Part shown: piece after piece, positions 136-37,033 of the stretch
Numbering within the stretch: the stretch's first letter is position 1
How the letters are laid out: each line of letters starts with the position of its first letter
Source: Heterostelium album PN500
Lineage: Eukaryota; Evosea; Eumycetozoa; Acytosteliales; Acytosteliaceae
DNA: 64,000 bases
NCBI RefSeq assembly: GCF_000004825.1
Contig: NW_008805073.1
Coordinates: 1 to 64,000, forward strand
Direction of reading: 5' to 3'
Made by a program: the position numbers and the translations under genes
Notes under the pieces: generated by a model
The model's input: only the letters and a program-made list of their open reading frames with translations
Databases searched by the model: none
What the model was told of the DNA's origin: nothing

Positions 136-784
136 TGAGCAGCAATTTTCAGCAGTGCCAGATGAGTCAATAGGAATTAATGTTCAGTCATCCCAAGAGA
201 ATTAGTAAATCACCTAGATTTGTGCTCAGAGATACAATCAAGAATAGAAATTTCACAATAAAATCTATAGTTTTTAAGCATAATAAGTATGATAAACGCT
301 TGAATATTATAATAATTTATTTGTTTAAAATTTGAAATCCATGTAACAGTTTGTTTCCATTTCAAAAAAATAAATAAAAAACTTTAATATATCGCTAACC
401 AAGCAGTATGAACAATCAAACTACTTTTTCGACAAAGAGCAATCCTCTTTCTCAAAATTCAACAAAATCTAGGATTAATTATTTTACAACAAAAATTAAC
501 TATAATATATAATGGAAATGGTGGAAAAAAAAGGAGGAGAAAATAGTTATAATTATAATTGACAAGAATAACACTAACTAAAACCACGTCAATAAGTAAT
601 GATTTTTATTTTTTTAAAATTTCAAATATTTCTATTTTTTTTTAATTTATTTGGTTATTTAATGAAATAAATTTTAATATTCTTTTTATTAATATTTTTA
701 CAAAGATTATTTATAGCTATTTTACATTTTAAATTTAAATTTTAAAGTAGATTCTACAACGACGTCATACCACCCTCTACTCCA
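136..784. other. A+T-rich intergenic DNA
   Basis: No gene is visible. There are poly-A/poly-T runs and short open stretches without coding bias. The last 200 bases are the likely promoter and 5' leader of the Bet1-type gene. Confidence 0.5.
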
Positions 785-2355: not shown

Positions 2356-3278
2356 AAAATGTGTTTTGTTTTTTTTTTTTTGTTAACAATTGTATTTAGC
2401 CAACCAATTAGTTATTAATTAATAATTATTATCTTTATCATTGTAAATACATACGATTTCATCGAAAATGAATTTGTTTGATCTAAATTTAAAATGATAT
2501 AATAAGAAATTCAAAGTTATATAGATAACAAAGTACCAAAACACTAAAAATCCTACAAATATAATTGAAATCATATCTATCTATCTTTCTATTATTCTTA
2601 TTATTACTATTGTTTTTAATACTATATGAATACAATTTAATCTTTGTACAATTTTCACATAATTATCAATACCACCACTAAACTTCAATTAATTAAAATG
2701 AATTCCCCCTCCCCACCCATGAACTTAAAATTTAAAATTCACCATAATTATAATGCAATACATTTGTTAATTGATACAATCTATTAAGTCTTGAATAGTA
2801 GATTGATTCTCTTTATTTATAAGTATAATTTCTATTATTGGTCATTTGGTTGTAGGTGTCTGGATCAACCAACCACATTGATTGTTGCAATGTATTCTTT
2901 TCCATTATTAGTTTTAATCCAGCATTTGCAATACGCTCGACAAGTTTATTATAATAAAGTTAAGTAATGCTGTGAAAAAGGTGATTCGGTGACTGTGACA
3001 CGTCGGTCAATATTTATGGTAATCCTAGAACATTTCTAGTATTCCAATCGCGATAAGCAATTTTAAAAGTAATAGTTTTTGTATTTATGTTATCGAATAA
3101 AAAAGTATCTAAAGTATCACGCTGGAGTTTATCTTATGAGACTCTATGTTGAAATTAGTATGAAAGATTGTGTGGTTGGTAATATAGAAGAAATACTTAC
3201 TTAGATGATTTGTTGTTTCGACCTTACTTTCTCATGATTATTTTATTTTTGTATTAAAATCGTCAGGTTCTTCTGAAT
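2356..3278. other. Intergenic DNA with one arm of a 17-bp inverted repeat
   Basis: A+T rich with no convincing gene. Positions 2850-2866 are the exact inverse of 3760-3776, so about 0.9 kb lies between two inverted 17-bp blocks that include a GGTGTCTGGATC core. Confidence 0.4.
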
Positions 3279-3566
3279 TTATAGTGATTGAATAATAAAA
3301 TATAAAAATATGATGAAATTGTAAACACCTATTTGAAGAATAAATGAATTAATATTCTTGATTTGATATATATGCTTGTTGAACTTACTATTTATTGATG
3401 AATTGTTTCCCGCGGTCCACTCATCTATAAAAAATTCAACCGCTACAATGTTTTTATCTTTAAAATATGATCCACAATCAGCTGTTGATTTGCTATTGAT
3501 AAAGTTTGAAAATATAACACGCCTACTCAAAATATGATTTTGGCACTCTGCACTTAGTTTTAGCAA
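3279..3566 (-). CDS. Small hypothetical ORF, possible gene remnant
   Basis: An open stretch of up to 95 codons without a good ATG; it could be an internal exon preceded by the TATAG acceptor near 3570. A GTAAGTTC donor and a CAAATAG acceptor inside would splice it into a shorter form. Residues such as KSTADCGSYF and IDEWTAGNNSS have normal composition, but I do not recognise a family. A 23-bp segment of it (3471-3493) recurs directly at 3616-3638, suggesting a degraded repeated element rather than a stable gene. Confidence 0.2.
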   Translation of the reverse strand: MLKLSAECQNHILSRRVIFSNFINSKSTADCGSYFKDKNIVAVEFFIDEWTAGNNSSINSKFNKHIYQIKNINSFILQIGVYNFIIFLYFIIQSL

Positions 3567-3638
3567 TAACTATATTGATGATCCACTTTTGATATTATTA
3601 GTCTTTTGCAATATATCCACAATCAGCTGTTGATTTGC
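3471..3638. repeat. Direct repeat of 23 bp (3471-3493 and 3616-3638)
   Basis: The same 23 bases (ending GCTGTTGATTTGC) occur twice, 145 bp apart and in the same orientation. The interval also lies inside the pair of inverted 17-bp blocks at 2850 and 3760, consistent with a decayed repeat element. Confidence 0.5.
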
Positions 3639-3917
3639 TCCTGCAAGAAGTAGAAAAACCACATACAGTTAAAATATCTATACTACATATTGCAAATACT
3701 AGATTAAAAAAAAAATTGCTACTGCTGAGAAGAGAACACATAGCACGGTGGTGGTGGTGGATCCAGACACCTACAATGACAATTATGAAGCTACAACTCC
3801 ATATTATGATTGACCACTATCGGTAATCGTTTTTTTTTTTTTTAGTATACATCAATTTTTTTTTTTTTTTTTTTTTTAACAAATTAAGATTATGATTATT
3901 TGTTTTTCTATTATATA

Positions 3918-5459
3918 ATGAGCAGTTCAACTAAATCAAAGAAAAAGAATGATCAAACAGATCAAGTAAAGAAGAAAAGTATTGTTAATAAAGATAAATC
4001 CGAAAAAGAAACAGAAAAGAGCGAAAAACAATCGATTGTTAATAAAAAGAGAAAAGATATAATCAATACTGATAATAATACAGAGCATGAACCAAAGAAA
4101 ATCATTAAAAAACAAAAGAAAGATATAAAATATACTGAATCAATCAAAGTTGTAAAAGAACAACAATCAAAAACAAATGAAAACAACAATATAAATAGTA
4201 GTAATAGTAGTAAAAAGAGAAAGAACAATGATGATAGTTCAATAGTAGAGAAATCAAAAGAAAAAGAAGTAAAAGAAGATAAAAAAGATAAAGTAGATAA
4301 AGAAAAAAAGAAACAAAAAATAACATCAATAATAATAAATAATGACATAAAAGATGATAATAATAACAATAATAATAGAGATCATAGTGAAAAGAATTGT
4401 AATTCAATTTTAGATTCTATAGTTGTAATACCTAGTAGAGATAAGAATCATTTGTTGTCAATCATACCAGAGCTATTAACTAAAACATCACTTCCTGCCA
4501 ATCCATTCATCGATACATTCAATCATCCTATAAAACCATTGTTATTCAAAACACCAACATCAACAACTTCTTCATCTAAATCGTCATCTAAATCATCATC
4601 TAAATCAAATGCAAACAACAACAACAACAACAGTTTCCACATTGATAATATTAAATCATTGTATCAATCACTTTCAAATATCAATAATAAACTATCGATA
4701 TCATCAGCATTGCAACAAGAATACAATCATTATAAAGATGTAATGAAATCTAAATATAAATTCATTTTGAAACGAACGAAACATATGAAACTATTACAAA
4801 TGGTATGAATTCAATAAATATGTTCAATACGTTCAACAATTATTAATAATATTCTTTATCCTTATAATAATAATAATAATCAGATTGGACAAAAACTAAA
4901 GATACTATTTGGCAATAACAATATACAACAATCAACATTGCTACCATTCATAAACTCTTTGAACAGCTTCATATTGGAACAAAAGAGTGGCAACTATCAA
5001 AGTTTACCAAGTGGTGATTTCGCATTGTTGACACTCTACAAGATTTACACTATTTTTATTTTGATAGATTATGTAAGTATACTACTACTATGGATATTGG
5101 GTGAAATCGAATTGAAATTGTTTTACTTACTTAATATAATAATAATAATAATACTAATCACTATAAACAAACGTTATAATAATTATTAGTTATCAGAAAT
5201 GGTATTAGAAGCAGCCAATCTACTAAGTGGTGTTTTAGGACAAGTTCATTATGTTATCTATTCAACCTCTTCGATCGCTTCGCTAGGTGTAATTTATGAT
5301 TCATTGAAATTGTTCCGCATTGCACTGTGCAACGCTTACAACACATTGTATCCTCAACTCTACCTGTTCGAACTCTACCATGAGAAGAACAAAGATAAAC
5401 TTTGTAATTCTTTTAAACAGACATTTGGTGATTTACCAAATCTAATAAAATCCATTTAA
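3918..5459 (+). CDS. Lys-rich protein with conserved-looking C-terminal half, family not recognised
   Basis: Exons 3918-4802, 4884-5072 and 5190-5459 give about 447 aa. The first 200 residues are K/E/D/N-rich with many KKK clusters that could act as nuclear or nucleolar signals. From about residue 240 the sequence becomes ordered and hydrophobic, with patterns such as LPSGDFALLTLYKIYT, LLSGVLGQVHYVIY and LYPQLYLFELYHEK, suggesting a helical domain. The ATG at 3918 is preferred because upstream in-frame codons are non-ATG. All introns are phase 0. A nucleolar or RNA-processing role would be a guess from composition only. Confidence 0.6.
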
Positions 5460-9113: not shown

Positions 9114-10463
9114 CTTTTCTTATAATCCTTACTGAATACAATAATACAAACCACCAAAATAAAATAAAAAAATAGTTAGCACCAAAGATTTTGAAGGACA
9201 CGACCTTTCGTTCTAAAAAAAAAAACAACTAGTTTGATTATTTTTTATTTACTATTGGTTTAATTTAATATTAATTAAAGAAATGAAAGAAGCAAAGAGT
9301 TTAAGGAATAGAGAAAATACCTCAGCCCGGCTTAACAAGACATAAAGGTGCCAAAAAAGGTGATTCAAGTCAATGTTAACTGCGACAGATCACCTTTTTT
9401 TTGATAGTGTATCTACCAACTTTTTGGAACAAAATTCGATTAGAATATCTGAATATTGGTCCTTCATTTGGTGATCACTATTGGCTACGCCTGTTAGCAG
9501 ACCAGGCCGCTGTTTCCGTGGAAAACAGGTCTCATTTTTTGGGGCAAAAGCGCAAAACTGCATCGTTCTAATTCATGCTGATTTCTCACATGGATGAAAT
9601 ACTCACCATACGGATATCTTTTATACATACATAACTGTTGTATATGGATAAAACACGTTGTTCGATATATATAATACATAAATAACTATACACAACTCAG
9701 CAACTTTAAACTTTAAGGTAGCTTTTGTAAATGTTATATAAACACTATATATATCGTTCGTAAAATGAAAAAAGATTGCGCGCTAAAGTCTCGATCAAAA
9801 AAAAGTCGCGAGTGGTTTTTTAATTTTTAGGTGTAAAGTGGTTTTTTTTTTTTCATGTTTTTTTTTTTTGAATAAATCATTGAAAATTCATTTTTTTGTG
9901 TTCTCAAAAAACGTTTACGTAAAAAAAATTTGAATTGGTACTTATGTGCACACAAAAAACAATTTTTTTATTTATTTATATTATTTTTTAGGGCATCATT
10001 CACACTAACTTTTGCTTCTCCATATAAAAATTAGACAAAGGTACCTCTTCATTTAAATAAATTGTTACAATCAAACAGGATACCTTTTAATTGAGACACA
10101 TGATGAGTCTGGCATTCAATATACTTCAACCATTGATTAGAGTGATTTTGGAGAGAAATTCCCATTTTTATCTATGTAGGATTATTTAATAAATATATAT
10201 AACAATTTTCAATCATAAAATTCACAAATAAAATAAAAATAATAGTCAGGCCATATTGGAGCTACACAATGATATGAGAACCAAAGAAATGTACTTCAAT
10301 CTCAACAATCAATCGATCTACTAACTATATCATTTAGAACTCGTCAAATGGCCAAGTGTTAATTACACTATGGAATGAATCAAAAAAAACAGCAATTTTG
10401 GAATATATATATATCAAACGTTAACATATTAAATAATTGAAAAAGATAAAATTATAAATCAAT
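9114..10463. other. Intergenic region containing a G+C-rich, hairpin-forming island
   Basis: No credible protein gene. A stem of 12 bp (9353-9364 with 9389-9400) encloses a 24-base loop and ends in a T run. At 9500-9535 a second stem, CTGTTTCC with GGAAAACAG, lies between AGACC and GGTCT and is followed by T6. The local base composition is far less A+T rich than its surroundings. Both units end like RNA polymerase III transcripts on the plus strand. I could not match them to a known snRNA, SRP, RNase P or snoRNA. Confidence 0.4.
9345..9540 (+). ncRNA. Candidate structured non-coding RNA locus (one or two units)
   Basis: Two stem-loops, each followed by an oligo-T run, lie within 190 bases in the only G+C-rich patch of this intergenic region. 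The first is AAAAAAGGTGAT paired with ATCACCTTTTTT. The second is a bulged 8-bp stem flanked by a complementary AGACC/GGTCT pair. Strand is inferred from T-run position. Boundaries are approximate and the RNA class is unknown. Confidence 0.3.
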
Positions 10464-11322
10464 ATGACAGATACAAACTCTATCGATTTTTGTGATAGTT
10501 GGGAGTCACAACTTACTCAGTTATCACCTCGTGCGCTAGAGAGACAGAATACCTTAAAGCAAAACAATAATCAAGATAAAAGATTAGAAATATTCGATCA
10601 ATCAGAACAATTGAATAATATTATTAACGAAAACGATAGCAATAATAACGATAGTGGTAGTAATAGTAATAGTGGTAGTAATAGTAATAACAATAGCAAT
10701 ACCGATAGTAATAGTAATAATAATAGTAATAACTATAACTATAAAGAGGAAATAGATTGTTATGAACAATATGAATCTCCTATCGTATGTATATACACTA
10801 GTACCTCAGAAATCGTGAATAACTTTTAAATATGATTTGATCTTTTTCAAGAATACAACATCTGAAGTGGGTGAGTCTCATGAACAATTTGAGAGAGACA
10901 ACTCATTACATGAGCAACAACAAACGCAATTGGAGAAAGATACAGAAGAAACAAATGAAAAAAGATTTCCTTTGAAATTACAAGAGCAATATATAGTGCA
11001 ACGAGAATTACAACAACAACAACAATTACAACAATTACAACAACAACAACAATTACAACAATTACAACAATTACAACAACAAAGTAATAGTATTAATAAT
11101 AGTGATATCAATAATAATAATCCAAAACTAGTCGAAGTAATTAAGTCTATCAATGATACATTTTATAGAGTATGTTCAGCTACGAAAGAAGAGTTTGACA
11201 AAGGTTTCAAAGAGTTAGAGGATAGATACTATATAAAAATTGGACGTGCATCTGTTACCAGAGAGAATGAGATTCAAAGAGTGAAAGAATTATACAGTTA
11301 CTCGACCAACAAGCACCTATAA
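10464..11322 (+). CDS. N/Q-rich hypothetical protein
   Basis: Exons 10464-10784 and 10852-11322, phase 0 intron with GTATGT donor and TTTCAAG acceptor, encode 263 aa. The first exon has a polar start (MTDTNSIDFCDSWESQL) and an N/S tract; the second has a Q/L repeat, then an ordered helical tail of about 60 residues including VEVIKSINDTFYRVCSATK and FKELEDRYYIKIGR. I do not recognise the tail. Strand and frame are supported by the in-phase join. Confidence 0.6.
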
Positions 11323-12364
11323 TAGTAATATCAATAATAATATTTTTGATATGATTGTTGTTCATTTACTGTAAATAAATAAAATGTTAATAATTTGATC
11401 GTACTCTCTAAGTAATCTCTTCATTTCTTCTATGGAGTTAGGGCCTCATTTACTTAATTGATATGATATTATTATTATCATTATTGTTAGGATTGAGAAT
11501 GTGATAGAGTAATAGACACCTCTAATTATTTAAAAAAGAAATAAATTATTTTAATTAAAAAATTTGGTGTTGTGAAGTGTAGGTGGTTGTGGAAATGTTA
11601 TGCTAACAGGGTGTCAAGTGCTGGCAGCAATGGTAGTTGGAAAGAGCTCACACTAAATTTAAAGGTTTGTAGTATTAGTAGGAGTTAGTAGTATTAGTTG
11701 TTGTTTTAGTTGTTGTTATTGCTGTTGATTAAAAGTAAAATAGTATGTTGGTGTCGATTCCATTGCCATTTGTGGTTTCTCTTACGATTTCATCGGTCTC
11801 TTCCACAACTAATTCCTCTTCTTGTCGGGTTCTACTATAGTGGTATACTACTTGCTGTTTGACTTCTTCCTATACTTGACCAACTACTGTTTCGCGCTTT
11901 GATCATCTCATACATAACTGTTGGTCGCTGCTGCTATGGGTAGTTTATGCTATCATTGTTGTTGTTTTGTAGTTGTAGAAGTACTTGTTAATATTCAACT
12001 CAATAAATGCAAAAAAAAAAAAAATTTGTATGAAAAAGCATACTACGAATGGGATTCGCTATACACGTTAAATTCGTAGTTATCGCAACAATTTATTTTT
12101 TTATATATAAAAAAAATGTTAAATAACTTTAAAAAGAACACTTGCAACGATTTTATAGATAATATATATTATAAATGAGAATATTTATTTTTTTGTTAGT
12201 ATTTAATCAAGTATCTTCTGAAGATTAAAGATTTTAAATGTAAACATACCAATTGCATTCATAGACATGTCTCATAGTTGAATCTACTATTGCAAAAGAT
12301 CGTCAATGCATCATCGATCTCTACAATGTCAGTTTCATTTGTCTTTTGTATCTTACTTCACATT
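11323..12364. other. Intergenic DNA with a possible stray coding exon on the minus strand
   Basis: Mostly low-complexity sequence. On the minus strand, 11869-11729 follows a GTATAG acceptor-like site and reads 46 codons of normal composition (EEVKQQVVYHYSRTRQEEEL) before a stop. This could be a last exon or a relic; I could not find partner exons with confidence. Nothing else is visible. Confidence 0.3.
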
Positions 12365-12844: not shown

Positions 12845-13169
12845 CTCAAATTAAATAACTATTGTTTGATCATTTTGTTTGAATACAAAAATTAAAAATT
12901 CAATTTCAATTTGTTATTGTTTGAAAATGATCATTTTTTTTTTTTGGAATTTAATTATTCAATAAATTTTTTTTTTAAGTCAATCTTTTTTTTTGATCGA
13001 AAAATAGATTTAGATCAAATAGAATTAGTACTTTCATTCTAAATTAAATTTTTAATATATAAAAACAACATTTAATAACTTTAAGACTTTTTATGACAAA
13101 TAATAGTAAAGCACAGAAAATAAAATTTAATTTAAAATAAATCAAATTTAAATCAAAAATTGTAAAATA

Positions 13170-13342
13170 TGATATAATATCAAAAAAAAAAAAGAACCAA
13201 CAAAAGAAAGCAGGGTAGTTTTTTTTATTTTATTCGATTTATGGTTACAAGCAAGAGCCAGTTTTGTTTTGAATTTTTACTATGTAAAAGAGCGACCTTT
13301 TCTTTCTTTTGTTGGTTCTTTTTTTTTTTTGATATTATATCA
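13170..13342. mobile_element. 173-bp MITE-like element with 41-bp terminal inverted repeats
   Basis: Positions 13170-13210 are the near-perfect inverse of 13302-13342; each arm reads outward as TGATATAATATC, an A run, then GAACCAACAAAAGAAAG. The core of about 90 bp is unique apart from a block (13215-13273) that is found again inverted at 21210-21264. Size, long TIRs and lack of coding capacity fit a non-autonomous DNA element. No clear target-site duplication is visible beyond the A/T flanks. Confidence 0.7.
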
Positions 13343-14999
13343 CTGTTGTTGTTTCAAATATTACCTATCAAATTACTATTAAATACAATCTAGAATCTTT
13401 TATTAAATTTATCGATCAATATTCAATTTTATAATGCCAAACCAAACAGTTAAACTGTTAATCATTGTAAACAATTTATTAGAGTTATTATTAAAGAGAT
13501 ATTAGATTTATATACACAAATATTTATTCATCTCTGCAAACAATACACCTACATTTATTATTAATTCCACCAGCAACATGTATTAAATCGATCCATTATT
13601 CAATTATTCACTAATTGATTTATCGATTGACACATCTATTTGTTAACTCATTCCCTTTATTCATTAATTTACATTCTTTCAAGATTCATCACCATCAGTT
13701 CATGTATTATATATTGTGCTTACACCCCATTCACTCAGTGTTGCTATGCGTTCATAACTGTGTTCCAATCTTTGGTAACAATAAAAATTTACATTAAATA
13801 AAAAAATATGATTAAATCTTTATCAAAGGCTCAATGGCTTTAATTAAATTACTTAATTAATTTATAAGTTATAACTTTTTTTTTTTTGTGACTCAAACAA
13901 ATTCACCAAAGACTCAATATATGTGTAAAAATACAACTTAACACTTAATCACAAGCGTCAGTTCAGCAATTGCAGTCAACAAAGGGATTCAATCACTTTC
14001 TTTTTCCTGTAATTTAATTTCAAAACAATTCTTGATATTGTCAACTCCAATCAAAATAGAAAGACGTTTATGATAATGCTGAAATCAAACAAAGAGCAAC
14101 CTACAAACAACTTCCTTACTTGATCGATGGTGATTTCGTAAATTTATAAGAAACAGATCATCCCACCATCAAAGATCTGGTAGAATTCTAAAAGCAATAC
14201 TCTTTTGAAAACAAATAACTCTATTAACAATACTCACTTATAGTTGGAGATATTCAATGGTTTCATTCCAATTCGTAGAGTTATCAAAATTTTTATTTAA
14301 TTTAACCAATAAAGACTAAGAGTTATTTATACAATTTTTTAAAAAGTATTTCTTTTCCAATCTATTTAATTTTTAATTTAAAAAATACAAATTGTTTCCA
14401 ACAATGAAAACTCTTTCAATACAATCAATCTAGAATGGTAAACTAACAATTGTCATGAAAACCATATTTCTTACAATCACATTTTTCCAATAAAAACATA
14501 AAAATTTTAACTCAATTTGAAACTTGTTTCAATCTTTTAAACCTAAATTAACACTTTAGAATTCGATAATGCAAATTCTATAAATAAAATTTGATCTTTT
14601 AAAACTTTTCAAAACAATAAAATTAGTGTTGAATTGCTTTTTAAAGATGATTTATGTTATTTATTCACCCTGGTCAGAAATATCATTTTTCTAAAAAGCA
14701 TTTTGATAGATTGTTCTTTACAAACATTAAAGAACATTTTATTTAAAACTTGTATTCCACTATATTCATTTATTATCTTTTCTCTTTTATTCACAACATA
14801 TATTCTTTATTTTCACTACTGTATTTCAAATTTAATATTGTCAAAGTTTTTCTTTTTATTTTATCATTTTATTAATTATCTATAAAAAATTAATATTTTT
14901 TTATATATTAATCATTATTATTTATCAATTATATTATATTAGTATTGTTTTATTGGTTTTTTCATTTTGATTCACCAAATTGAGGAATAAAGCTCCACC
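13343..14999. other. A+T-rich DNA upstream of the Fanzor-like gene
   Basis: No gene is supported. Small open stretches at 13615-13797 and 14634-14885 have hydrophobic, A+T-driven composition and no start context. The last 30 bases carry one arm (14971-14984) of an inverted repeat that spans the start codon at 15000. Confidence 0.5.
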
Positions 15000-15028
15000 A
15001 TGGAAACTTTAGTTCTCAATTTGGTGAA
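14971..15028 (+). promoter_or_regulatory. Inverted repeat spanning the start codon of the Fanzor-like gene
   Basis: TTCACCAAATTGAG (14971-14984) is perfectly complementary to 15015-15028, with the ATG in the 30-base loop. In RNA this would put the initiation site in a hairpin; in DNA it is a 14-bp dyad. The loop also holds CCACCATGG, an unusually strong start context for this A+T-rich genome. Confidence 0.5.
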
Positions 15029-18000
15029 ACAATTTGAGGATGATGTTGAATATGAATTCATTGTTGATGAATTTTGTAAAAAAAGTTTAATTTTTCGTGA
15101 TTTATCATATATTGTATCTAATTTTTTATCATTTTTTTATGTAAAATATTTTAATTTATTGGGTAGAGACCCAATCAATCAAAATTTTATAGATATAATA
15201 GATAAATTGAATATTAGTAAAAAAGAATCAATAGATATTAATGTTTTTAAACCAAGTAGATTTTTAATATTGGATTTTTCAATAATTTCATACATAGTAA
15301 ATAGAATATCAGATAAATCAAAGAGAAACAGAATAGATGATATAATTAAATTTATTAGAGAGAATAGTAATAATAAAGATCAATTTTATTATAGAAATTT
15401 ACAGCATTATATAAATAAAGAAAAATCAAAAGATTTGATAGATAGTGAATTGGAACAGTTTTTGAATTCCAATCAATTTCAGTATATATATAAGGATTTA
15501 GAGAAAATTCAAAAATCACAAGATTCAATATTACATTCAACTCATAATCATTTTAAAACACAATTATCAACCAACATAATGAATCACTTGACAAGTAGAA
15601 TATCAAATAGTATAACTTCAGTTTATAAAATAATAAATATAATATTGAAAAATAAATTAAATAATAAATTAAATAATAATAAGAAACTATCTACAACCAG
15701 TTTACTAAAATACTTAGTAAACAATAATATGGTATGTATTATTTTTTTTTAACAATTTTATTATATTTTTGTTTTTTTTTTATTTTTCTAATTTTTTTTT
15801 TAAAATCTATTAGATTGGATTTATTTCCAAAAAGCAATATTTGAAAATTATCAAGAGATATAAAGAAACTGTTGATGAGACAACAGAGATCACTAAAGAT
15901 GTGCGATACAGTTTGCTAATTCGAACATTGTTGGAGCGATCGGATGCTTGGGTTGAGAATCTCGACAACATTAAAATTGATTTGGGTATTTATTTAGAAT
16001 TATAAATTATTTATTTTAAATTTTTAGTTTATTAATTTTTTTTTAGATTCTCAACAATATTTTAGACATCATGATTTCAACCTGCTTAAAGATGGTATTC
16101 TATCGAAAAAGGTGAAAGAGTGTGGGTTGGAGCCTTTCTTTAAAAGATGTATAGAAGTAATTTCCAACCTAAAATCAGCTAATCTTAGTGATTTTTCCGA
16201 GGCCTTTTATATACATTTTCTTTTTTTACAATTAAATAATGGTAATTTTATTTTTTAATTTTTATTATTTTATTATATATATATTTTTTTTTTAAATTAA
16301 CTTTTTTTTATTATAATATTTAGATCTATTAAGAGTTCCAGAAGAAGATGTGATCCAACAATCCGAACACATCATTTTCAGACTGAGGAACATCGATTCT
16401 TTTAAGATTTTTCCAGTGAACACATATAATGGTAGTTTCACAATGCATGGCATTGACTGGCTTGAGAAACAAAAGACTACAATAGTTGAATCAAGCTATG
16501 ATATAACTAACATCATGGATATGGATATCCATGATTCAATCCAAGGTATATTGTTATTTTTTATCTATTTATCTATTATTTATTATCTATTTTATTTTTT
16601 ACTAAACAAATATTTGTTTTTTTTTTTTAGAAAATCAAAACGATTTTTTTAGTATATTTACAAATACTTTAGATATATTTTTGTCAAAGTATAATAATTT
16701 AGATATCAACATTAATGAAAAATTCATCACTATCATCACAAAATTCAAATCATCTTTATTATATTTACCATTTCCACCAGAAGCATCACCTTCTACAATT
16801 AATATTATTAAACAAATCAATATTAATATTCATAAATCAATTTTAACTTTAGATGAGTATTTAAAATCAACAAATACAACACACTATACTCATATCATTG
16901 ATTTAATTAATCATATCTATATGTTATGTACATCTTCTTTAATTAATAACCATTTTATTCAAACTTCATCTCTACAACCTCAACAACCATCAGATAATGA
17001 TGTAATAATAATTACAACTCATTCACAGTCACAATCTATTACATCGCAACCCTCCAACACTCCAACTTCACCAATGCTTTTTAATTCAACTCTAAAAAGT
17101 TCATTTACCATCTTCTTACAATCAATCCACAAAAAGAAAAAGAAGAAACCAGTATCAAGAGCCAAGAAGGTGTCGGTTAAAAAGGCACCAAAGAATCCAG
17201 CAAAGAAACCTCAACCGAGAGCCAAGACCAATACTACCACCAATGACAAGTCGCGTCGACGAAAATGTAAACCTTCCATACCAGCTAAATTGACCGACTA
17301 TGCTGCCAACATTAGACTGTTAACCAAGTATTTCCCTTTGAGTCAGGGCTCCTACAGTTGGAACGTGTTATCCCCCTTCGTTGGTCCATCACCGTCCGAT
17401 TTTACCTCGAACATGGACTCTATTCTAGAGTATCGTTTCATGGAGTATCTACACATGAAGAATCAATACTTTTGTTTTTCTGGATGGCAACCTCGACTGA
17501 TTTTCTCAAATCTCGTGAAACAAGAGAAGCTACCCGTTTTGAAATGTATAGTAGAACAAAACTATATGTATATCGAAACAAAGTTGGACTCGAATGTTAT
17601 TAAAAGGCTCTTGTTTTTTGAAGATTTATCCAATATTTCAATTACAACAATATCAGCTTTTATAGAATACTCGAGGGAGATTAATGGAACTACTGCAACA
17701 TCCTCATCAACTACAACTACAACAACATCCACAACTACAACAACTACAACAACTACAACTACAACTACAACTTCTTCTTCTTCTTCTTCATCATCTTCAT
17801 CCTCCTCCTCAAACAATACAACAAAACAAAAAAGAACAAGAATATTTTTTCATATAACTGACCATCCTTGGATTGATTTGCCTCCGTTGGATTCTAATGT
17901 TTCCAATCAACCACCTACAAAGGAAAAGTATTCATATACTTTAGCCACTAGACTCTATTATCTGATAGACAAATTCAAATTTACATTATTCCCCCATTTG

Positions 18001-21000
18001 AAAGGGTAAGTTTATTTATTTAAAAAGTTATTTACCTATTTATTTATTTTTATTAATTTTTTATTCTCAAAAAAAAATCAAATAGGTTGGAGCCAGTATT
18101 TTTGCTCTACAGTGAACAGGAAGTTTTGAATCTATTCAAAATTCCTAAATCACTTTCCAATAAGAATATTTCCATCAACCATATCATGACAGACGGTGTC
18201 ACTTTGTATTTAACTTACTCCAAAGTAGTAAATCAACCTCAAGTTTTAGTTCAGATGCAACCAGTTGAGACGGATACCAACCAACCTATTGACAAAGAGC
18301 CAGATCCCGATGAAGAACCAGACCCAGATTCCGAAGATGAGTTACCGCCAAAGATTGTAACTCCAACATTGCCACCAGAATGTAAGTTTTATTGTTTTAT
18401 TTAATTGTTATTTTCATTGTATTTGCCTTTGCAAAAACTAATTAAAATTTTTATTTTTTTATAGATTATGCTTGTGGAATTGCTTGCGATCCATCGCCGA
18501 GAAAGAATTGTTATGTTAATCAGAAAATCAAGTTTGATTTTACATCCAAAGGTAACACTCATAAACTCGATGATAAAGTTCTGAACATCAAGAGTTTAAG
18601 TTATAAATTCGATTGCAAAACATCGAAATTCAACAACAAAAGAAATACTTTTATTGGTAAAGAGATGGTAGAATATGAAACTACATTCCCATCGATTGAT
18701 AGTAAGTAGCTTTAACATTTTTTTCTTTTTATTTAAAATACTAACTGTTGTTTTATCATTTAGGCTCGAGAACTAATGATATCTTAAGTGTACAATGTTA
18801 TATTAGATCTCTAGGTTTCCGATATGGAAACAAAGACAACTATTTAAAGTTCTCTCAGTATAAGAAGCGAAGAGCTCAAGTACAAGTCAAGAAACTACGC
18901 TTCAAACGATTCATCCAGAAGAAAGTAGCCAGAAGCCATCGTTCTAAATTGATTTACACTCACGCCCTCAAGGGAATCGATGCCTACTTGTCGGGTGAAA
19001 AAGGTGCCAACAAAAACCATGTTGGTTCTAGTAGTAGTGGTAGAGGAAGTATCAGTGGTAATGGTAAGGATAGAGGTAGTATAAGTATTGGTGGTGGTGG
19101 TGGTGGTAGTAACACCAATTTTTTTAGTATATTATCAAATCATGATGAAGATAAAGATGATGATGAATACAACAATAATAACAATAATGTTAACAATAAT
19201 AATAATAACAATGATAACAACAATAATAATGATAACAATAATAATAATAATAATAAAAAAAAAGAAATGAATTTTCGTCAACGATCACATTATAAACCTA
19301 AACAACATCAAATAATTAAATGTAGATTTAGCGAAACCATTCAAAAGATAATTAATAGTAATAATATAAAATTTAATAATAACAAATCATATACAGTAAT
19401 AACTATGGGATTTCGTAATAGAAACCCAATAAATAATAATATTACAGACGAAGAGGATAAAATTATTAATTATTTCACTCAACACCTCGACAATATCATC
19501 AATTCCAGTCAGTTCATCAACAAACAAACAAGACAAATATTTAGATGGTCAATTCCAATCTTGGAATACCATCCACATCCACAACTCATTAAAATTCTCA
19601 ATCAACTATCACCTCAAATTCAAAACCAAATATTTGGTGAAACACTATCAAAAAAGCTAAACACTATAATCAATCCATCATCATCATTATCATCATCATC
19701 TTTATCCATACCATCTTCACCATCATACTCACCACCTCTTTCATCCCAATCATCTTCACCATCGCCATCTTTACAACCTCTATCACCATTATTAATATCA
19801 TCTTCACCACAATTATCACCATCTTCAATACCATTATCACTTTCACACTCACCACAATTACCATCATCTTCAATACCATTATCACCATCATATTCGCCAC
19901 TCTCTGAGAGTTCATTATCACTACTATCTTCACCAGCTACATGTAAAAATAAACTTCATATATTTATTTGCGGAGTAAATGACAACCCAAATATTTTAAA
20001 TAATAGAAAAGTATGTGAAGATTGTAGAAATAATAACAATAATAAAAATAACAATGACATTAACAATAATTCTAATAATAATAATAATAACAATAATAAC
20101 AATAATAATAACAATAACAATAACAGTAATTCTAATAATAATAATAACAATAATAACAATAATAAAAATAATAAAATAAATAATAAAAAAAACAGTAAGT
20201 ATTCATTCTCAAAAATTAATATATTCATTTTTTTTTATAAATTTTCTAACACTCTAACTATCTAGAAATCAAATGGGAATGCAATAAATGTGGAGTTATC
20301 AACAACTATAACAGAGAAAAAGTATTTGTTGACCAATCCAGAGTTTTTATCGGGCACTGTAAGAATTGCTTACAAGAACACCCAATGTTTTATAACGAAA
20401 AAGTAAAAACTGAATATGCCAATCTAATTAATCTATGTAAGTTTATTTTATATAATTTAATTATTTATCATTTATTAACTATAATTATTTTATAAAATTA
20501 TTTAGTTCCAGGTCATGGAGGTGGTCATATGGGGTTCATTCCTGGAATGAAAGGAATCAACCCAGCTCCATACGTCGAAAAAGAACTAAAAGATGTTTGC
20601 CAATACATTTACACTAATACCAAAGTAAATGTTCGTTATAAGATTGTCGATGAGTTCAATACATCTCAAGTATGTAAATCAAATATTTTTTTTATCATTA
20701 TCTCTTAATTTAATTAATAACTAACGAATTGATTTCCTTGGATTTATTATAGGTGTTCTCGCCACTACTCGAAGAGAACGAACTAGAGGTTCGCAGAGAT
20801 ATTTCAAAGTATGACTCTGCCAAGTGCCTAAAGCATATTCCAGAGGCGCACTGGGATCCACATAACAGAAAGGTGCCTCTATCCGAAAGTACTCTCCGGT
20901 ACAACAGGAAAGCTTACCTGTTTAACGGAAGTTACTACTATATCAACAGAGACGTGAACGGAGCCAACAATATCTTGTCGGCTGGTTTACGTCTTATCAA

Positions 21001-21094
21001 TCCATCTTTCGAAAAAGATGCGAGACATCAACTTCTTAAGAAGTTTCCACGGCTCCAGGAGGACGACGCTGAAGATTTGATCGATCAACGATAA
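15000..21094 (+). CDS. Fanzor/TnpB-family RNA-guided endonuclease homologue, giant form
   Basis: Fanzor proteins are eukaryotic relatives of bacterial TnpB; studied members cut DNA under guidance of an RNA. I model 11 exons: 15000-15731, 15814-15985, 16047-16241, 16324-16545, 16631-18005, 18086-18381, 18465-18701, 18764-20194, 20266-20436, 20506-20669, 20753-21094; all join in phase, giving about 1778 aa. Family marks: HIMTDGVTLYL (about 931-941), GIACDPSPRKN (RuvC-I, Asp about 1006), PGHGGGHMGFIPGMKGINP followed by YKIVDEFNTSQ (RuvC-II, Glu about 1660) and YINRDVNGANNIL (RuvC-III, Asp about 1732). The cysteines normally found between RuvC-II and III are absent. A basic KKKKKKP...KSRRRK segment near 600 may be a nuclear signal. 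T/S, N and S/P tracts swell the protein far beyond the usual 400-800 aa. Family call is strong; activity is unknown. Confidence 0.85.
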
Positions 21095-21511
21095 AAAGTT
21101 GGTAAGTTGTCAGAGAAAAAAAATTATTTTTAAAAAAAAGCACACTTTACTAATTTTTTTCTGTTTGAAAAAAGAATTTGACATTTAGTTGTAAGTAAAG
21201 TTTTCAATACAAAACAAACTGGCTCTTGCTTGTAACCATAAATCGAATAAAATAAAAAAAACCACTCTGATCACATTAACCCCACAATTTTTAATTTTAC
21301 TTTTTTTTAAAATAAAGCCCAGGCAAAGTTGTTGGAGCCATTTGTTTGTAAAAAAAAAAGTAAAAAAAAAACATATTTTTGCAATAAACTATTTATTTAT
21401 TGTTTTTGTTGTACAATAGAAATAACCATCTAATCTAATCTAATCTAATATTAGACATATAATCGACCAATAAATAAATTAAGTCGAATAACTTGATTAA
21501 TTTACATACAA
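21095..21511. other. 3' flank of the Fanzor-like gene with shared repeat blocks
   Basis: Contains the 23-bp block 21183-21205 (identical to 6647-6669) and then 21210-21264, about 50 bp nearly identical, in inverse, to the core of the MITE at 13215-13273. In Fanzor and TnpB loci the guide RNA is usually encoded at or beyond the 3' end of the gene, so this is where one would look; no clear RNA structure was recognised by eye. Four TAATC repeats near 21430 precede the next gene. Confidence 0.5.
21210..21264. repeat. Inverted copy of the MITE core
   Basis: About 50 bp including GGCTCTTGCTTGTAACCATA match, as reverse complement, positions 13215-13273 with one or two single-base differences. The two copies bracket the Fanzor-like gene in inverted orientation, 7.9 kb apart. 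Confidence 0.75.
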
Positions 21512-23701
21512 ATGAACGGCAACATGCTGAATGAAGCAAAACTGGTTGATGTTGTAGGTCAACCAACAGCAGCAGCAGCAGATCATACTAATAACATTGT
21601 TGAAAATACAAACATCAAAACTACTACCAATGAAAATGATAACAATAAAGATATTGTTGTTGTTGGTGAAAACAATAAAAATTTAAATATTGTTCAACAA
21701 CTATCAGATATTAATAGTAATGGTAAGAGAACAATGACAAACAACAATAATAGTAGTGGTAGTAATAGTAGTAATAGTAGTCATAGCGGTCTGTTCTGTG
21801 AGGAACATGATAAGAAGCTGAAATTGATATGTGTTAGTTGCTGCGCCATGGTTTGCACTCGTTGCACCACTAGCAACCACAAAAATCATGTGTTTGATGA
21901 TAGCCATTCCATCGGTAAAACGATCACCGATGAAACATTGATGAATCTGTGGAATCGTCTAAAGACATTCAAGCGAATGCATACCAACTACAGACACACA
22001 GAGCAACAGATCATTCAGTTCTACGGTGATCTACACGAGCTGCTCATCACACATGAGCTCAAAGCGAAAATACCGATACTCGAGCAATACGACAAGCTCA
22101 ACACATCACTCAAGAGCGTACTCCATCAAATTAAATTCATCTTTCAACTGAAATACTCACATCATTCACATTCAATCAAACAAATGGAAACAAAATCAAC
22201 AACAACAACAGCATCATCATCATCAGCAACATCATCATCAACAACAACAACAACAATAACACCTGAAGAAGATAATAATGATAACAATAATAATAACAAT
22301 AATGATAATAATAATAATGATAATGAATATATGATAAAAAAGTTAATATCATTAATAAATACATTGAATAACGAGGTTGGAAATGGAGATGATTCTGATG
22401 GAGATTCCAAACTCAATGATGATGAATATGCAGAGTTGATATCAGAGATGAAAAACTCGATGATTGATGAATTGGATGTTACAAAGATGATAGAGTCTAT
22501 TGATAACACTAAAACCTTTACAAACTTTCTAAATGATCATCATAGGCTTTTTAGACTGACAACTCCTACACTGACCGACACTTATAAATATGAAAAGAAT
22601 CTGCTGGAATTCGAGAGTGTTCTACCAAAGAATATAGAGGTGTCGTTCAATCACAACAAACTCGCTAGTATCAAGAGTAAAATTTCGGAACTCTACCACC
22701 AGACCGACCACTACTCCAACAAGTCAAAACAATGCATCCTATCGGTGTATCAAGCGGAACAGGACACCAAGATTGCCATTGAGAATCTAAAGAGTAAGAC
22801 AGGCCAAATCACTGTATACACTTGTCATATTGAGAGTTGTCAATGGACAAACACTCTCTACTCGATGGTTGCGGTCGGATCGAAAGTCTATGTATTCGGC
22901 GGAAACAATCGCGCCAAGAACTACTCGACGATCGACCTCGATTCCAACTCTATCTCCATTACGGACCGCGGAGAATTCGATACTGCGCAGGGTGGCGAAG
23001 GTATCTCTGCGTGTCACCACCCGAATGGGTTCATCTACATCGTTGGCGGCATGAAGAAACAACCGAACAGGATGTTCACATTGTCGCGTATCGACCAGCT
23101 CGACCTGTCCACCAATCATATCCGACGAGTGGGACAACTCGACTATCGCGTGTGCGAAGCATACACATTCATGAGGTGGGGACGACTCTATATTCTGGGT
23201 GGCAACGACGGTGACAAAGAACTCTTTAAACTGTCGACGTTCCATCCGACCACCGAGAAGGTATCGACACTCTCGGACAACCTATTTCACGATACTCTAG
23301 ATGCTAAGGAGCAGGAAACACTCAGGATAGTATCGATGTGTTACGATGAGCACGACTCAGTCTACCTGCTATGCGACAGCGATAGATTCTCGTTCTACCG
23401 TCTGAATCTACTAGACATGAAACTGACGAAACTTCCGGTGCCAACTGAACCACCGATGTACTATATGACAAAACACATGATGGTCTACATGAACAATGGA
23501 TACTCTGAACAACCACCAATCATCTACAACCCAACGCTCAATCAAAACTACCATATAGAGTCTAACCAATGGGAAGAATCCACTCATTACTATAGCCAAG
23601 TACCACGACGTTTCTGTATTGGTATACAAGATTTCAAGAATAATAACAACAACAACAATGAAAATGCCAACAATATCAATTCTAAAAAATCAATAAAATA
23701 A
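21512..23701 (+). CDS. B-box zinc finger protein with C-terminal kelch-type repeats
   Basis: Single exon, 729 aa. After an N-rich leader, a B-box (about residues 94-132) has the order FCEEH, CVSCC, CTRC, HKNHVF, giving the zinc-binding C/H set. A helical middle region with S/T and N/D tracts follows. The last 290 residues carry kelch-like blades: SKVYVFGGNN, GFIYIVGGM and GRLYILGGNDGD, each with the GG pair. This B-box plus kelch layout is common and expanded in dictyostelids; partners are unknown. Coding G+C is markedly higher over the kelch region than over the tracts. Confidence 0.8.
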   Translation: MNGNMLNEAKLVDVVGQPTAAAADHTNNIVENTNIKTTTNENDNNKDIVVVGENNKNLNIVQQLSDINSNGKRTMTNNNNSSGSNSSNSSHSGLFCEEHDKKLKLICVSCCAMVCTRCTTSNHKNHVFDDSHSIGKTITDETLMNLWNRLKTFKRMHTNYRHTEQQIIQFYGDLHELLITHELKAKIPILEQYDKLNTSLKSVLHQIKFIFQLKYSHHSHSIKQMETKSTTTTASSSSATSSSTTTTTITPEEDNNDNNNNNNNDNNNNDNEYMIKKLISLINTLNNEVGNGDDSDGDSKLNDDEYAELISEMKNSMIDELDVTKMIESIDNTKTFTNFLNDHHRLFRLTTPTLTDTYKYEKNLLEFESVLPKNIEVSFNHNKLASIKSKISELYHQTDHYSNKSKQCILSVYQAEQDTKIAIENLKSKTGQITVYTCHIESCQWTNTLYSMVAVGSKVYVFGGNNRAKNYSTIDLDSNSISITDRGEFDTAQGGEGISACHHPNGFIYIVGGMKKQPNRMFTLSRIDQLDLSTNHIRRVGQLDYRVCEAYTFMRWGRLYILGGNDGDKELFKLSTFHPTTEKVSTLSDNLFHDTLDAKEQETLRIVSMCYDEHDSVYLLCDSDRFSFYRLNLLDMKLTKLPVPTEPPMYYMTKHMMVYMNNGYSEQPPIIYNPTLNQNYHIESNQWEESTHYYSQVPRRFCIGIQDFKNNNNNNNENANNINSKKSIK

Positions 23702-35977: not shown

Positions 35978-37033
35978 TTTTATAACTCTTTAAATCAAAT
36001 ACTTTAATATATGTTTTATTTTAAAAATGAATGTGTTCTATTGAGAGAAAAAAAATTAATGATTTGTAATTTCAAAAAAAATAAAATCAAAAAAAACTTC
36101 TTTGATGAAAGCTGTTCATCAGCCACCATATTACTATCGTCGCATTCCTCAGCCGTATGCTTTCTCTCATCTGATAATCTATTATCTAAATAAATAGTTG
36201 GGAGGAATTGGACAGCTCCAAGAGAAACTCAACTGCTCGAAAGTTGTTAAACTCTTTAAAAATTACTGTGCATTTATCGATTCTCAAACTACCATATGCT
36301 ATTAGGTTATAAGATAGTTATTCATACCGATCACCAAACATGCTCAGATAATAGATTATCAGATGAGAGAAAGGAACTATATAGAAAGCAGTTTGATTGC
36401 CATAACCTCTTGTTCAAAGACATGGTAATCCCTTTCAGTTGTGTTAAACTTCTTGGATCCATAAATAACAATTTGTTTGTTATCTTCTTGTTCAATATTG
36501 TCTTTGTATTGATAAATGACATGACCTATTCCATCATTGGAGTCGTCACAATCGATGGGAAATGTTAACTTAATAATATATGTATGTTCACTTGATGGTG
36601 AAAATCACTTGGTGGTGATATATATTATGCACTTGGAAGTGCTATAGTCAATCGATGCTTTAAAGAGCATGCTACCATGTTATTTTACAATGGTAATAAT
36701 GTCATATTAAAATATACATATAAACATATAAATATTATACTTACAACTTTGATATAAAATTAGGAATTACTTTTAGGAATAGTTTTGGTACAAGAAATAT
36801 GGATTTAATAAATGTAATAAAGTTTAGAGATATAATTTACAGTATAAGATTTAAAGATAATCATTTATTTGATTTACAATTTGAAGATAAGAATAATATT
36901 TGATAGTGTTGAATAAATGTTGGATTATTGTTTAACAGTTGGATTATTAACTTTAGTTATTTGAAATAACTAAAGTGTCAATAAACTATTTGAATTGTGA
37001 TGGTTGAATTCTTAATAACTATTGATTTGATTA
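35978..37033. other. Intergenic DNA containing a rearranged retroelement fossil
   Basis: The central 36.1-36.57 kb is the fossil listed separately. The rest (36570-37033) is A+T-rich with a palindrome AGTTATTTGAAATAACT near 36955 and no gene. Confidence 0.45.
36090..36565. mobile_element. LTR-retroelement fossil (pol RNase H region), broken and rearranged
   Basis: Segments on both strands resemble the RNase H part of Ty3/gypsy-type pol: on the plus strand YKIVIHTDHQT (36305-36340), on the minus strand GSKKFNTTERDYHVFEQE (36390-36470) and an adjacent DSNDGIGHVIYQY. The pieces lie in opposite orientations, so the copy is rearranged, with several breaks, and no LTRs are seen. A 28-bp inverted repeat (36160-36187 with 36346-36373) lies inside. 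It is an old fragment only about 0.5 kb long. Confidence 0.55.

Follow-up and report, generated by a model that had tools for sequence, protein, structure and literature searches.

Fanzors are eukaryotic RNA-guided nucleases. Most are encoded by transposons (PMC3627910), and the Fanzor table of that 2013 paper lists seven families from Polysphondylium pallidum PN500 (prefix PPa) and four from Dictyostelium fasciculatum (DFa). The alternative RuvC-II glutamate of Fanzors precedes the first zinc-finger cysteine by six residues (pattern E-x6-CxxC), and in most TnpBs the RuvC-II glutamate is found elsewhere (PMC10711439). Here we describe a gene at 15000-21094 (plus strand) of Heterostelium album PN500 DNA, in a stretch of 64,000 bases (bases 1-64000 of contig 12, hereafter the window) belonging to a searched genome of 32.9 Mb in 39 contigs. 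An earlier interpretation made from the letters alone (the sequence-only reading) had called the gene a giant, multi-intron Fanzor, possibly domesticated by the amoeba. We consider it reasonably probable that the gene lies in a full-length copy of a mobile element of about 6.7 kb, whose product would be an RNA-guided DNA nuclease that is Fanzor1-like and of very large size. Direct support comes from an open coding model, a conserved catalytic triad, a dispersed multicopy pattern and a conserved right end. Overall, the locus is real, mobile, Fanzor1-like and structurally unusual.

The gene and its nuclease core

GT donors and AG acceptors were tried at ten implied intron sites, and eight combinations stayed open, giving 1,772-1,779 codons including the stop. 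The preferred splice model, which uses the GTAAGT at 18702, predicts 1,778 residues in 11 exons, and all its introns (15732-15813, 15986-16046, 16242-16323, 16546-16630, 18006-18085, 18382-18464, 18702-18763, 20195-20265, 20437-20505 and 20670-20752) are GT-AG. The motifs named in the sequence-only reading are all there, in the order it gave: MTDG (D934 after the T), DPSPRKN (D1006), GHGGGHMG...KGINP, VDEFNTS (E1660) and NRDVNGANNI (D1732). The open model also bears out a size of about 1778 residues in 11 exons with T/S, N and S/P tracts, all of them long. As the model splices open and keeps these motifs in order, the gene is real, judging from its sequence.

In this model exon 1 (15000-15731, with the ATG at 15000), exon 2 (15814-15985), exon 3 (16047-16241) and exon 4 (16324-16545; acceptor at 16323, although the frame is also kept with 16335) are followed by exon 5 (16631-18005), which contains a basic stretch that may be a nuclear signal, a weakly conserved domain and the T/S tract. 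The domain was aligned with its relatives as A4 (five sequences, low identity). A uracil-glycosylase-like domain in exon 5 and its relatives was tried and rejected, being unsupported by a PDB profile search; the single-sequence structure model was useless (predicted local distance difference test 43). By splice model and core alignment, exon 6 (18086-18381) would encode the WED-type TDG motif (MTDGVTLYL) and exon 7 (18465-18701) the RuvC-I aspartate of DPSPRKN. Exon 8 (18764-20194) would give a basic, helical-looking segment followed by the N-rich and S/P-rich inserts, and exon 9 (20266-20436) a zinc-ribbon-like motif ahead of RuvC-II that recurs in three relatives. RuvC-II (GHGGGHMG...VDEFNTS, with the glutamate in the alternative position) is assigned to exon 10 (20506-20669), and the RuvC-III aspartate (NRDVNGANNI) and stop codon to exon 11 (20753-21094), in both cases by splice model, core alignment and comparison with a TnpB profile.

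A genome search with the C-terminal 225 residues returned 26 matches at E<=0.1, three of which were the window's own exons. Among 20 matching regions compared, L036, L037 and L038 are long copies of the window's kind; L049 and L051 (97-98% identical) form a more remote family with the same motif order; and L045, L046 and L047 are three copies of a further Fanzor-like family, which share 97-99% identity across more than 5.6 kb. L036 and L038 have the same borders as the window at the exons for RuvC-II and RuvC-III; by eye they seem to have one extra intron within the counterpart of exon 1. The large size and many introns noted earlier hold in these two relatives also.

The cores of the window, L036 and L038 were aligned (A1) after the low-complexity inserts had been cut by hand; L037 was omitted, as it is nearly identical to L036 and its frame is broken in exons 5 and 8, whereas the inspected exons of L036 and L038 are open. 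Core identity to the window is 41% for L036 and 35% for L038. The D-E-D triad is invariant in all three sequences: D108 (DPSP), E366 (VDE[YF]NTS) and D438 (NRDVN) in alignment numbering. MTD precedes RuvC-I in each (MTDG in the window, MTDS in L036 and MTDA in L038), and the D ... [TS][TS] ... RD order of the PMC3627910 motif is present in the C-terminal half of all three. The remote L049 protein keeps NEFNTSQV and NRD, hence the RuvC-II and RuvC-III acids. The glutamate of VDE[YF]NTS stands at the alternative Fanzor position (PMC10711439), though the cysteine itself is replaced by F.

Profile comparison points the same way. The TnpB set consisted of 65 sequences, 61 of 80 TnpB loci that passed an open reading frame filter plus the four of alignment A3. 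With hhalign the A1 core profile matched this set with a score of 46.2 (P 2.4e-5) at RuvC-III; 150 column shuffles scored at most 28.8, the reversed profile 29.8 and the A4 profile 12.2. A second, poor alignment paired the first knuckle of the ribbon with the TnpB zinc knuckle (P 0.0035), and a third, weak one paired VDEFNTSQVFSP with the TnpB VDP..TSQ.CS segment (P 0.064).

Several results weigh against a nuclease of this descent. The TnpB match is confined to 22 columns at RuvC-III, and RuvC-II is weak, as the third alignment shows. PF07282 (the TNB domain) matches all three core sequences below its cut-off (best E 0.012, window E 0.19), and Pfam searched with the full window protein gave three matches, all below cut-off (best E 0.056). 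NCBIfam and PADLOC gave no significant match to the core, searches of PDB sequences that started from A1, from single cores of L036 and L045 and from A4 gave nothing meaningful, and a large protein database searched with the A1 core yielded 6,496 candidates, none at E<=1. RuvC-I reads DPS in the window, L036 and L038 and DPA in L049, whereas the Fanzor signature is DPG (PMC10711439). The spacing from D to [TS][TS] is 656 residues in the full window protein against D-X(125,275) in the PMC3627910 motif; in the hand-trimmed cores it is 259-260 residues. Finally, none of the four sequences inspected has the C4 zinc finger expected between TS and RD, an interval that holds one cysteine in the window and none in L036, L038 or L049. 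In viral contigs, pattern matches occurred in 284 stretches for A1 and 119 for A2, none of which was confirmed as a relative.

The searches without significant matches would suit an unrelated mobile-element protein whose motifs resemble those of Fanzors by chance. We regard this as very improbable, for the D-E-D motifs and TDG are ordered and conserved and the profile match exceeds its controls. A Fanzor/TnpB relationship is likely on these grounds. The claim of homology therefore stands for the triad, the alternative glutamate place, TDG and the RuvC-III match but not for the canonical C4 finger, which is missing; in the profile check on the C-terminal half, the TnpB comparison rose above its controls and the Pfam, NCBIfam and PDB sequence searches were not significant. 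Because that finger is absent and RuvC-I is DPS rather than DPG, the protein reads as Fanzor1-like, and we do not claim canonical Fanzor membership.

A C-x2-C-x22-C-x2-C motif lies ahead of RuvC-II in the window, L036 and L038, with x18 in place of x22 in L049. Also in L049, an exon at 2690-4366 (plus strand) between RuvC-I and the ribbon has a weak BRCT match (E 0.0058, below cut-off). The L045, L046 and L047 proteins show CRGCGHFYHRDKNAARNI, so that half of the canonical zinc finger seems to be kept there. Since the L045 family retains CxxC just before RD, the finger was probably lost in the window's kind. Such a loss is what one would expect of a non-cutting passenger of Fanzor descent, which had given up the TNB zinc finger and now served another transposition step such as binding or copying. 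The finger missing from all four sequences, the change of DPG to DPS or DPA, the splitting of the core by large inserts and the weak BRCT match in one relative would fit this explanation. It is nevertheless unlikely in our judgment, as the three acids are invariant in A1 and those of RuvC-II and RuvC-III persist even in the remote L049 family.

Copies, ends and route of movement

The inferred element spans 14451-21186 (plus strand, ~6.7 kb), where similarity to other copies starts and stops and the flanks differ: similarity to L040 begins at 14451, and that to L035, L040 and L052 stops at 21180-21186. Our genome DNA searches scored the best candidates only (40 of 63 in the L045-family search, 40 of 214 in the other), and copy counts are therefore lower bounds. 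L036 and L037 share 97% identity across 7.9 kb, and their flanks differ; as the two are so alike at different sites, one was copied recently. L040 is an internally deleted or rearranged derivative with both ends, and the remaining places hold, at the least, many fragments, some scrambled, including truncated ends. Against the main reading, no clear terminal inverted repeat or target duplication was found at the ends of the window copy, and neither a terminal repeat nor a duplication was found at the ends of L036 and L037.

The sequence-only reading had raised the possibility of domestication, with intron gain and a possible nuclear signal as signs of long residence in the host. An old Fanzor element kept for the amoeba's own use, its frame intact while relatives decay, would explain the contrast between the window gene, whose frame stays open for 1,778 codons, and its nearest DNA relatives in the set of 20 compared regions, which are fragments. 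The ratio of nonsynonymous to synonymous substitution rates (dN/dS) between exon 11 of the window and the C5 fragment (L035), 0.44 over 112 codons, suits past constraint, but would suit an active transposon equally. For L036 and L037, where seven of nine exon stretches were counted because the other two were not found intact in L037, there are four synonymous and six nonsynonymous changes in 588 codons (dN/dS 0.36), too few to lean on. A domesticated gene would be expected as a single copy at a fixed site; we found instead that the family is multicopy and dispersed, and that its members include two nearly identical copies, one derivative with an internal deletion and some truncated ends. The window copy retains the right end of the mobile family, and two of the three other long copies are the recent pair. 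The same introns are common to copies that have moved, so they are no argument for long residence as a host gene. Domestication is thus unsupported and, as an explanation, quite improbable; the locus is probably a mobile element rather than a tamed host gene.

Just past the stop codon lies the conserved right end of the element (21095-21186, plus strand), a candidate omega-RNA region. It recurs at nine other places at E<=0.01 (100% over 92 nt at the C5 place), and its core pattern with at most two mismatches occurs at 13 places including the window, against none for the reversed pattern. Ten of 12 compared right ends were aligned (A5); L038 did not align and L051 is the same as L049 there. When exon 11 and the right end were searched together (20755-21200), 11 other rows matched, six of which reach only the last 46-72 nt of the query: those on C25 and C14 (L049 and L051), C21, C9 (98%), C10 and C28. 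The right ends on C25, C14 and C21 are from the remote L049 family or similar to it. L049 and L051 share the right end, yet their coding DNA has no match at E<=1e-10. The C9, C10 and C28 right ends have no exon 11 match, with little DNA farther upstream covered, and a 5' query (14440-14960) found C17, C14 and one C11 place but none of the six right-end-only places.

From the stop codon onward, the window and C5 copies are identical at 95 of 95 bases, although there are 29 differences between them in the 336 coding positions of exon 11 and 3 in the 78 positions of intron 10 that align, together with a 9-base gap. The chance of no difference in 95 bases is ~2e-4 at the exon rate and 0.03 at the intron rate, so that this identity by itself carries modest weight. 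The right end also has intron-like signals, a splice-donor-like GTAAGT (21102-21107) and a TACTAAT (21148-21154) with a T tract. By eye, comparable pairs follow the stop in L036, L037, L038, L045 and L049, with L051 lacking the donor. A simple reading of these letters would be an intron in the 3' untranslated region. Telling against a structured guide RNA, the fold of the right end was no better than plain letter shuffles in five of six copies (window z -0.03; L049 z -1.99), and no consensus base pairs were found there. Rfam over 14300-21400 gave one chance-level match (E 0.29).

On our preferred reading, we infer that the protein would bind RNA from the element's right end (stop codon to ~21186) and adjoining flanking DNA as its guide, and that the guided protein would locate matching DNA, for example an empty site or a sister copy. 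The RuvC-type D-E-D active site would then cut this target and so help the element to persist or spread. The nuclease core would be C-terminal, with a large insert carrying the zinc-ribbon-like module between RuvC-I and RuvC-II, and the relocated ribbon may stand in for the zinc finger that the target-binding (TNB) domain lacks.

The shared 3' ends could instead reflect spread by reverse transcription or another 3'-anchored form of copying, by the element's own or a helper's machinery, with the right end as recognition site rather than guide RNA. The 5'-truncated copy L035 has a perfect direct repeat of 22 bp at its two ends (score 44, against at most 30 in 72 mismatched flank pairs), and L142 comes next with an imperfect repeat (score 28) at the same offset. 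Truncated copies have their 3' end in common: five of the nine other places stop at the window's base and four stop 6-9 bases earlier. In the L045 family nine out of 44 matched rows have their end at query base 3971-3978, among them one full copy and three rows with a second, coding match next to them. However, only one of nine copies has a direct repeat above control, and introns are retained in the copies. The 5'-end and internal fragments and the scrambled or internally deleted copies such as L040 suit gap repair at the DNA level, no reverse transcriptase was noticed in the element, and the Pfam scan of the encoded protein was without any domain. We find this route doubtful as the main explanation. 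A tRNA-linked insertion found no support, as a scan with a bacterial setting, which may miss intron-bearing tRNAs, showed no tRNA gene in the window and none in 16 of the 20 compared regions.

A bolder synthesis, which we put forward as speculation that is itself improbable, is a clade of giant mobile Fanzor-like nucleases in which the target-binding zinc finger has disappeared and zinc is bound by the RuvC insert instead. One right end would be common to families whose coding regions have diverged, and gene-less right ends would be a pool of guides (or copying templates) acting in trans for a few intact proteins. Spread of such a clade might run through RNA, given the splice-like right-end signals and the 5'-truncated C5 copy with its 22-bp duplication.

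Hairpins and neighbouring repeats

A long predicted RNA hairpin encloses the start codon, with the AUG near its apex (14955-15046, plus strand; minimum free energy -36.8 kcal/mol, z -7.20, none of 200 shuffles as good). Two relatives keep it (L040, z -5.45; L042, z -5.90) and in L041 it is weaker (z -2.57); some paired changes are seen by eye in L042. The 5' part of the L036 element has at positions 400-547 (reverse strand) a perfect inverted repeat, 51 bp long, around a loop of 46 bases. Palindromes scoring at least 14 occur in the window and L036 elements and, by the same scan, in none of the L038, L049, L045 and L040 stretches. The window hairpin and the L036 inverted repeat could throttle translation or yield double-stranded RNA.

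Elsewhere in the window, a truncated right end of the L036/L037 family lies at 36025-36157 (minus strand; 85% identity over 142 alignment positions, 20.3 bits with the right-end model), adjoined by an inverted repeat of ~27 bp seen by eye. A short repeat with long inverted ends, also seen by eye, is at 13168-13342, and 13211-13269 recurs inverted at 21211-21269, just past the element, with 93% complementarity. Another repeat family is represented by 10026-11330, which shares 93-98% identity with a stretch that precedes the L038 gene. The neighbouring gene at 21509-23698 (plus strand) encodes a protein with a B-box zinc finger and Kelch repeats.

Comparison with known systems

In a limited search of the literature, itself seen in part, we found no description of a Fanzor that is giant or lacks the zinc finger. 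A natural group that exceeds the usual size more than twofold, with the triad kept and the TNB finger lacking, would help to show what guide binding and cutting require of the protein. In a social amoeba, right ends that are shared between families or stand without a gene would offer a way to ask what a Fanzor does for its transposon.

The TnpBs of IS200/IS605 and IS607 in our set of 65 have an NRDVNAARNI-type RuvC-III motif and a TSQ motif in common with the window core, but retain in their consensus the C4 finger that the window protein is without. The majority of Fz1 proteins have 600-700 residues (PMC11423790) compared with 1,778 here. PpFz1 of Parasitella parasitica likewise has an insertion within its RuvC domain, the Fanzor RuvC insertion domain, which is ~100 residues in that protein (PMC11423790).

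Closer to home, the locus resembles the Fanzor1 elements of P. pallidum and D. fasciculatum (PMC3627910) in its dictyostelid host, its mobility and its TnpB-like C-terminal motifs, and the gene may be one of the seven P. pallidum Fanzor1 families of that paper. PPa-1, 4 and 5 are Sola2 chimeras that carry imperfect terminal repeats of 21 bp and AT-rich target duplications of 4 bp (PMC3627910), neither of which was found at the ends of L036, L037 or the window element.

SpuFz1 of Spizellomyces punctatus (PMC10432273) differs in having a CCCC zinc finger, 30-nt inverted repeats and a locus of 2.1 kb, whereas the window protein is far larger and lacks the canonical finger, and no terminal inverted repeats were found for its element. 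The SpuFz1 omega RNA is expressed and folded (PMC10432273); the window's right end is a candidate only. Like SpuFz1, the window element has a single gene, and in neither was a transposase found between the two ends (PMC10432273). The right ends without an exon 11 match recall the SpuFz1 ghost loci, which, however, keep both ends (PMC10432273). SpuFz1 also has a conserved right-end region of ~80 nt after its stop codon, and the window's right end is similar to it in position and length (PMC10432273).

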